From Campylobacterota bacterium (GTDB lineage: Bacteria; Campylobacterota; Campylobacteria; Campylobacterales; Sulfurovaceae), in the NCBI GenBank assembly GCA_003252535.1, contig QKDN01000031.1:1-64000 (forward strand): a DNA stretch of 64,000 nucleotides. The letters are read 5' to 3'. Numbering within the stretch: position 1 is the stretch's first letter; every line of letters starts with the position of its first letter. Below are positions 62,628 to 64,000 of the stretch, piece by piece. Position numbers and translations under genes: made by a program. The notes beneath the pieces are model-generated. The model ran no database searches and had not been told where the DNA came from. It saw only the letters and a program-made list of their open reading frames with translations.

Positions 62628-63500
62628 TTACTTCGAAAGTACTTCTTTGATCGCTTTGCCGATCTCTGCCGGAGAGACGACGACTTTTACACCTGCTGCT
62701 TCGAGGGCTGCCATCTTCTCGGCAGCCGTACCGGCCGATCCGGAGATGATCGCACCTGCGTGACCCATTCTCTTGCCTGCCGGAGCAGTCTGGCCTGCGA
62801 TGAACGCTACGACCGGCTTGGTGATGTGCTCTTTGATATAGGCTGCCGCCTGGATCTCGAGATCGCCGCCGATCTCACCGATCATGACGATCGCTTCTGT
62901 CTCAGGGTCAGCTTCGAACAGTGGAAGAAGCTGCTTGTAGCTAAGACCGATGATCGGGTCACCGCCGATACCTACAGCTGTAGTGATACCGAAACCTTCT
63001 CTTACTACCTGATTCGCACCTTCGTATGTAAGCGTACCTGACTTGGAGATAAGGCCTACGTTACCTTTTTTGAAGATCATGCCGGGCATGATACCGATCT
63101 TGCACTCTTCAGCTGTGATGATACCGGGGCAGTTTGGCCCGATGGTTTTCATACCATGCTTCGTAGCGTAGGCTTTTGCCGCCTGCATATCGCGCACAGG
63201 CGCACCCTCGGTGATGATGACCGCGAGCTCGATACCGGCATCAGCAGCTTCCATGACCGCATCGGCTACGAACGCGGGTGGAACGAATACCATAGAGACA
63301 GTAGCGCCTGTAGTAGCTACTGCTTCTTTGACCGTGTTGAACACAGGCTTGCCGAGGTGCTCCTGACCCCCTTTGTTCGGTGTGACACCGCCGACGATAT
63401 TTGTGCCGTATGCGATACACTGCTCAGCGTGGAATGTCCCCTCGCTACCTGTAAAACCCTGTACGATTACTTTTGTGTCTTTGTTTACCAGAATACTCAT
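62628..63500 (-). CDS. sucD: Succinyl-CoA ligase, alpha subunit
   Basis: A 290-residue subunit with the CoA-binding domain at the N terminus ([20 protein letters not shown] around 13-32), GPNCPGIIT, and [14 protein letters not shown] containing the phosphorylated His. With SucC it interconverts succinyl-CoA and succinate with ATP/ADP in the TCA cycle, running forward or reductively. AAAGGAGAA ribosome site. The sucC end lies upstream on the same strand but is separated by a four-helix-bundle gene. Confidence 0.95.
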
Positions 63501-63532
63501 TTTATTTTCTCCTTTCAGTCGAAAAATAGCAT

Positions 63533-63927
63533 AGAGCTGAGAGCTTTGGGCTCAGAGCTTGTTGATAAGAGTATGTAACATACTCTGAATCTCAACTATT
63601 TTTTCTTTTAAATCTTTATCGCTATTGATATAACCCAATCTTCTAGCCAGTTCCAATTGAGTCCTGAGCTCAAAAAGCGAACCTCTTGCAATATACAAAA
63701 ACTGTTTGAACTCTTTATCAGAGTTCCGCCCCTTCCCTTCAGCTATATTGCTGGGGATAGAAACAGCCGAGCGATTGATTTGTGATACAAGATCATAGAT
63801 TTCACTCTTTGGAAAAGTTTGAGTCAGTCGATAGACCGACTCTACCAGTTCCATAGAACTTTGCCAAACCTTTAATTGTGTGAACACGAGATCAGCTCTA
63901 AGCTCTGTGCCTTATGCTCTTAGCTCT
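63533..63927 (-). mobile_element. IVS-like element: four-helix-bundle gene with 28-bp terminal inverted repeats
   Basis: The ends AGAGCTGAGAGCTTTGGGCT onward (63533-63560, plus strand) and AGAGCTAAGAGCATAAGGCA onward (63927-63900, minus strand) match at 23 of 28 positions as inverted repeats. The left end contains the stop codon of the enclosed gene; the right end contains the sucC stop codon. The gene-plus-palindromic-ends design recalls intervening sequences in 23S rRNA genes, which carry the same protein family. Confidence 0.7.
63552..63887 (-). CDS. Four-helix-bundle protein (S23/IVP family)
   Basis: A 111-residue protein of the S23 ribosomal-IVS family: LKVWQSSMELVESVYRLTQ, then QINRSAVSIPSNIAEGKGR (the hallmark) and FLYIARGSLFELRTQLELA. 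Related four-helix bundles occur in rRNA intervening sequences and as Avd in diversity-generating retroelements; the native role is unknown. GTG start without a Shine-Dalgarno site. It occupies the sucC-sucD gap and lies inside a pair of inverted repeats. Confidence 0.85.
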   Translation of the reverse strand: MFTQLKVWQSSMELVESVYRLTQTFPKSEIYDLVSQINRSAVSIPSNIAEGKGRNSDKEFKQFLYIARGSLFELRTQLELARRLGYINSDKDLKEKIVEIQSMLHTLINKL

Positions 63928-64000
63928 GCTTTGCAGCTGCTACTGCTTTTGCCGCACCGTCTGCGAGGTCGGTCGCTGCGATTACGTTTGCGATATTTGC
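63920..64000 (-). CDS. sucC: Succinyl-CoA ligase, beta subunit, C-terminal end
   Basis: Only the last 26 residues are visible, ending NVIAATDLADGAAKAVAAAK then Gln-Ser. The pattern fits the C terminus of SucC, as expected upstream of sucD. The final codons and TAA stop (63920-63922) lie within the terminal repeat of the inserted four-helix-bundle element, so the natural C terminus may have been changed. Confidence 0.7.
   Translation of the reverse strand, partial: ANIANVIAATDLADGAAKAVAAAKQS

Follow-up and report, generated by a model that had tools for sequence, protein, structure and literature searches.

Heptad arrays bound a four-helix-bundle gene between sucC and sucD and recur across the S23/IVP family

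What is a small four-helix-bundle gene, flanked by inverted repeats, doing between two genes of central metabolism? The locus lies at the end of the 64,000-nucleotide stretch of Campylobacterota DNA analysed here (the window), in which the minus strand reads sucC, the inserted gene and sucD (Table 1). A profile search places the inserted gene in the S23/IVP family (PF05635, E = 1e-41), and it is the single PF05635 gene found in the window's 2.92-Mb genome. An initial annotation had described 28-bp inverted repeats with 23 matches around this gene, and these are present: the best ungapped inverted repeat pairs positions 63900–63927 with 63533–63560 (23/28 matches), and none of 2,000 shuffles equalled it (best shuffle 13 versus 18). 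The annotation was also right that the repeats hold stop codons, that of sucC in one arm and that of the IVP gene in the other. What it had missed is their internal structure, because each arm consists of five degenerate heptads with the unit AGAGCNN. The resulting period-7 signal was matched in 1/2,000 shuffles for the 5' arm and in 0/2,000 for the 3' arm. The hairpin at the right junction has an 8-bp stem at locus L005 and is weaker in the window.

Table 1. Features of the sucC–sucD locus in the window (5' and 3' refer to the gene strand).
Feature	Coordinates	Strand	Description
3' end of sucC (host gene)	63920–64000	−	Runs past the window to contig position 65134; stop TAA at 63920–63922
5' arm, five heptads, unit AGAGCNN	63893–63927	−	AGAGCTA AGAGCAT AAGGCAC AGAGCTT AGAGCTG; contains the sucC stop codon; assigned from sequence and period-7 signal
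IVP gene, PF05635 / TIGR02436 four helix bundle protein	63552–63887	−	111 aa, GTG start, TGA stop
3' arm, five inverted heptads	63526–63560	−	Plus strand: ATAGCAT AGAGCTG AGAGCTT TGGGCTC AGAGCTT; contains the IVP stop codon
Right junction, TATTTTTC...GAAAATA	63503–63528	−	Imperfect hairpin over the sucD ribosome-binding site; common to sucCD elements in other genomes
sucD (host gene)	62628–63500	−	ORF

The structure model of the window's IVP is a confident four-helix fold that matches 2gsc, a protein described in PMC4990558 (citing Lin 2006) as a homopentameric toroid. It has the same fold as Avd of diversity-generating retroelements (4dwl, TM 0.81) and matches it weakly in sequence (E = 3e-6), with scores below the Avd cut-offs (NF033474, 27.4 bits versus 80; PF22296, 28.1 versus 40). 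A profile search of the window's genome found no PF00078 match, that is, no reverse transcriptase. Dependence on a reverse transcriptase was rejected more broadly, as about 16 of the 24 genomes with an above-cut-off IVP lack such a match. The IVP gene is under purifying selection: dN/dS was 0.05–0.12 in well-aligned pairs with unsaturated dS and 0.22 in one partial sucCD pair, the L048/L062 pair being left out because its value was at odds with the alignment and probably reflected a wrong gene pick.

To see how general the heptad arms are, we surveyed 101 non-identical PF05635 loci, drawn from genome contigs of many phyla and from relatives. Across the 101 loci, the flanks showed excess autocorrelation only at lags 7, 14 and 21, whereas control stretches about 1 kb away carried the period-3 coding signal alone. 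The 5' (upstream) array was significant in 91/101 loci and both arms in 88/101, most of the remaining loci having one weak arm or two arms that both repeat at period 8 or 9. Period-7 arms are thus the rule for the PF05635 family (about 90% of roughly 100 non-identical loci), and looking for end repeats at other S23 genes, as the initial annotation had suggested, returned an equivalent design at nearly all of them. Named plasmid copies, here mostly cyanobacterial, had arrays in 10 of 10 cases, with period 7 in eight and period 8 in two, in both arms each; phage records gave no match for IVP elements. Because a few elements keep period 8 or 9, with the two arms agreeing, the spacing is not strictly fixed. 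Two Avd homologues with an adjoining retroelement variable region (L107 and L110) had no heptad arrays.

The repeat unit itself varies widely between loci (TAGGTNN, GTCGTTG, GAAGGNN, GTAGCTG, GTGAAGA and others), and unit agreement was 0.75 between the arms of one locus versus 0.47 between loci. Common to the units is an NRG core on the gene strand (110.8 versus 83.8 ± 3.5 for permuted units), oriented 55:6. The modal count was five copies per arm and the usual array extent 30–33 nt, fitting five short cores; because simulations showed that the copy counter reads n or n + 1, true copy numbers are mainly four and five, and many arms may have four. Unit similarity climbs with protein identity: it is about 0.44 for proteins less than 30% identical and exceeds 0.7 once identity passes 60%. 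This bears on a host origin of the repeats, which native sucC genes might suggest by often ending in GAGAGCTATAA, a sequence that resembles the unit. Yet the unit tracks protein relatedness, even across different sites, so copying of the target is not the main source of the repeats.

Are the paired ends the two sides of an RNA stem? The initial annotation had read them so, likening them strictly to 23S rRNA intervening sequences (IVSs), and had suggested that the RNA may be cut at the stem. On such an rRNA-type reading, the ends of the transcript would pair, RNase III would cut and the insert would leave the sucCD mRNA. RNase III does excise the S23 IVS of Coxiella (PMC4990558), the window RNA folds with its ends paired (z = −6.7), and the predicted fold pairs 60% or more of the 5' arm with the 3' arm in 86/120 elements. 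The pairing, however, resides in the units. Shuffling heptad order in one arm changed it only from 19.4 to 18.8, whereas an exact-complement arm would drop from 34.5 to 24.5, and for the window's own arms 168/500 such shuffles paired equally well. The arms are therefore complementary unit by unit, with no register-specific stem, and a fixed RNA stem is not favoured. The window element sits at a sucC/sucD junction, not in a 23S rRNA helix, and no 23S motif was found in or near the IVP loci examined. In 51/88 loci the downstream gene's reading frame runs through the 3' arm without a stop, and a cut stem would be harmful at these many sites; because 184/315 arm frames are open by themselves, openness alone is no evidence of selection. 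Excision of the rRNA type is also hard to square with plasmid copies that lie antisense to their neighbours (see below), and we consider it very unlikely. Neither the strict likeness to 23S rRNA IVSs nor the cut at the stem was supported.

Comparison of copies instead points to DNA mobility. Two elements from different genera, at the ispG site (L097) and the murD site (L100), align over the whole element, both arms included out to their outermost heptads, and their flanks are unrelated. Near-identity between L048 and L062 extends to where the 3' arm ends; on its left, L048 meets the end of its contig. Between a gene ending in HPFCKKV and a following gene with KIWHF, one conserved junction is occupied by three or more unrelated IVP lineages with different units, or is empty, and the hldD/hldE, emrB, ispG and murD junctions behave similarly, with unrelated copies or none. 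At sucCD, where 52 of the 60 family genomes were matched and 30 junction regions retrieved, most readable junctions are empty, the sucC stop overlapping or lying near the sucD start. The seven occupied junctions, taken with loci from the wider set of genome contigs, form one clade (SH-aLRT 99) with a common right junction. Judged from these alignments, a mobile element ends at the arms, and the initial proposal that such an element, with inverted repeats at its termini, has inserted at the sucC–sucD junction appears sound, as does its expectation of empty sites in relatives. Among these genomes, one per species, no transposition was observed; close copies at different sites were few, most shared one site, and many recent transpositions were not seen.

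No clear target-site duplication was found at the junctions read by eye, some of which carry host-sequence hairpins instead. Hairpins adjoining the arms (score 9 or more) occurred at 15/260 junctions versus 0/520 controls. Those at L097, L104, L248, L254, L100 and L278 consist partly of host codons plus an inverted copy, and are absent from the empty sites that were read. Such hairpins may have been left behind by the insertion reaction.

The genomic setting raises a different possibility, that the element acts on mRNA. In the AT-rich set, all clear cases lie inside operons and are co-directional with both neighbours (45/45 and 44/44), and the stop codon of the upstream gene falls at the 5' arm's edge (median +1 nt). 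Some sucCD IVP pairs are saturated at synonymous sites, and both members retain the arrays. Together with the purifying selection on the gene, this is what would be expected if the IVP bound NRG heptads on the transcript and regulated translation of its own gene or its neighbours, the element being perhaps mobile and kept for that use. One array would be enough for an RNA binder, yet there are about five mirror-oriented copies at both ends. Arrays are also found without a gene and within genes, and the IVP gene of Nostoc and Calothrix plasmids (L346 and L347) runs antisense to the genes on either side. These plasmids likewise break the co-directionality that is absolute in the AT-rich set. A module working on mRNA therefore seems improbable to us. 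Other cyanobacterial plasmid elements (L349, L350 and L352) lie within CRISPR operons, between cas6 and cas4 or between cas10 and cmr3.

Arrays without an IVP gene were followed in whole genomes. In that of the window (G000), the AGAGC pattern had 53 matches with one mismatch allowed, and the control had 0. Read singly, they include a single clean mini-element, L300, built from two arrays in inverted orientation, alongside several arrays that are solo or degenerate. At five further places (L291, L295, L299, L303 and L304), inverted AGAGC pairs lie inside a MITE whose ends are CACGGTA...TACCGTG, and these pairs may have been spread by another transposase. Not all AGAGC arrays of this genome, then, are independent mini-elements. 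At L307, a solo AGAGC array stands directly before an RNase P RNA-like sequence.

Among 61 genomes, exact AGAGC arrays were frequent only in G000 and G029. At least 14 GAAGG arrays occurred only in G010, G029 and G030, exactly the three genomes with a GAAGG-unit IVP, and G014 and G024, which have a related unit, held five GAAGG arrays each. The corresponding prediction for GTCGTT arrays held in G073, G108 and G111; G027 and G066 have GTCGTT arrays without a known IVP of matching unit, solo in the stretches read. In G029, 57 AGAGC array matches (L326–L330) were accompanied by no AGAGC-unit IVP that we could find, and their driver may be lost or unassembled. Because of G029, G027 and G066, the unit match between IVP and gene-less arrays is strong and not universal; to judge by their units, gene-less mini-elements often carry the repeat of the resident element. 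In G029 and G010 the mini-elements are two inverted arrays around a short loop, and the AGAGC family of G029 has an inner sequence in common, ends at the arms and has unrelated flanks. Gene-less heptad pairs are thus dispersed within one genome in the manner of REPINs. A GAAGG mini-element and a solo array (L317 and L321) lie within an aminotransferase-like reading frame.

Could the heptads be mere slippage repeats, or parts of unrelated MITEs, with the IVP gene as a passenger? Polymerase slippage has been proposed for heptanucleotide repeats generally, in work cited in PMC4679880, and the CACGGTA-ended MITE does carry heptad pairs in the window's genome. Slippage, however, does not yield two inverted arrays of the same unit around one gene family, nor a modal count of five, an oriented NRG core and a unit that correlates with protein identity. 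We regard this explanation as scarcely credible.

We therefore favour, with a probability of about 0.75, the reading that the window's insert is a resident copy of a mobile DNA element that is widespread and composed of about five heptads, the IVP gene and about five inverted heptads. That a mobile element is bounded by the heptads is, in our judgement, highly probable. The heptad sequence belongs to the element lineage and travels with its protein. On this model, the protein would be the specificity factor and is probably needed for the element's movement. Like its homologue 2gsc, the IVP would form a five-subunit ring. We infer that this ring binds NRG-cored heptads at each end, about one per subunit, a stoichiometry that we offer tentatively, at somewhat less than even odds. 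Binding would bring the element's ends together for movement, and the IVP would also mobilise gene-less copies in trans. The IVP is the sole encoded protein, and the element has no linked nuclease, transposase or reverse transcriptase, which suggests that cutting and joining are probably left to host replication or repair enzymes. Copies are seen where they do little harm, at a stop codon between operon genes and usually co-directional. The sucCD element entered once, in an ancestor or a donor, and was then kept under purifying selection. Taken to its furthest extent, the model would define a new class of transposable element, in which a pentameric ring protein without nuclease homology counts end heptads, one per subunit, leaving the heptad sequence free and copy number and core conserved, drives its own spread and, in trans, that of gene-less copies, and accounts for many of the heptanucleotide repeats reported across bacteria; in this complete form we think it rather unlikely.

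S23/IVP genes were reportedly recognised by the early 1990s and have lacked a function ever since. Our reading joins them to orphan heptanucleotide repeats in a single mobile element made of a protein and its end repeats, and would give a common family so far without function a testable role. It also poses an unusual recognition problem, as repeat number and spacing are conserved and repeat sequence drifts with the protein. TRAP is a ring protein that acts on NAG repeats, and if the IVP does form a ring, both would be oligomeric rings reading evenly spaced short cores; we know of no relation of sequence or fold between them. Rickettsia palindromic elements are short, palindromic and tolerated in frame inside genes, similar to the in-gene placement at L317 and L321. 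To our knowledge, they are not heptad based and have no associated protein. The Avd of diversity-generating retroelements is closer, as a pentamer with the same fold and weakly matching sequence, but the window's genome has no reverse transcriptase match and the Avd homologues at L107 and L110 are without heptad arms.

The 23S rRNA IVSs that encode S23p in Coxiella and Leptospira share the protein family, a length of about 430 nt and inverted repeats of about 28 bp at the termini. According to PMC4990558, a 1993 proposal already gave S23-encoding rRNA IVSs a mobile origin and made the ORF necessary for their mobility. By contrast, the elements described here lie in protein-coding operons; their ends are arrays of about five heptads that are complementary by unit only, and gene-less derivatives occur. 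REPINs are hairpin-forming paired inverted repeats, spread in trans by a protein (RAYT) that has its own repeat class and diverse among genomes, with singlets as remnants (PMC3116915). IVP elements would work in a like manner, with paired inverted repeats and gene-less copies, but they have tandem heptad arrays instead of REP palindromes and a four-helix bundle instead of a Y1 transposase. Our literature search, restricted to open-licence papers, found none that joins heptanucleotide arrays with S23/IVP. The heptanucleotide repeats of Geobacter metallireducens, Beggiatoaceae and cyanobacteria are alike in form, with four or five tandem heptamers that come in pairs or singly and often stand where genes begin (PMC2700814, PMC4679880). 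In those reports they were read as regulator-binding sites or left unexplained, without a link to S23/IVP: the Geobacter metallireducens arrays were taken as possible regulatory sites (PMC2700814), and for Beggiatoaceae a repeat-binding protein was floated as a possible mobile part (PMC4679880). The link to IVP may explain such heptanucleotide repeats, which have been described in bacteria for many years with no cause assigned.
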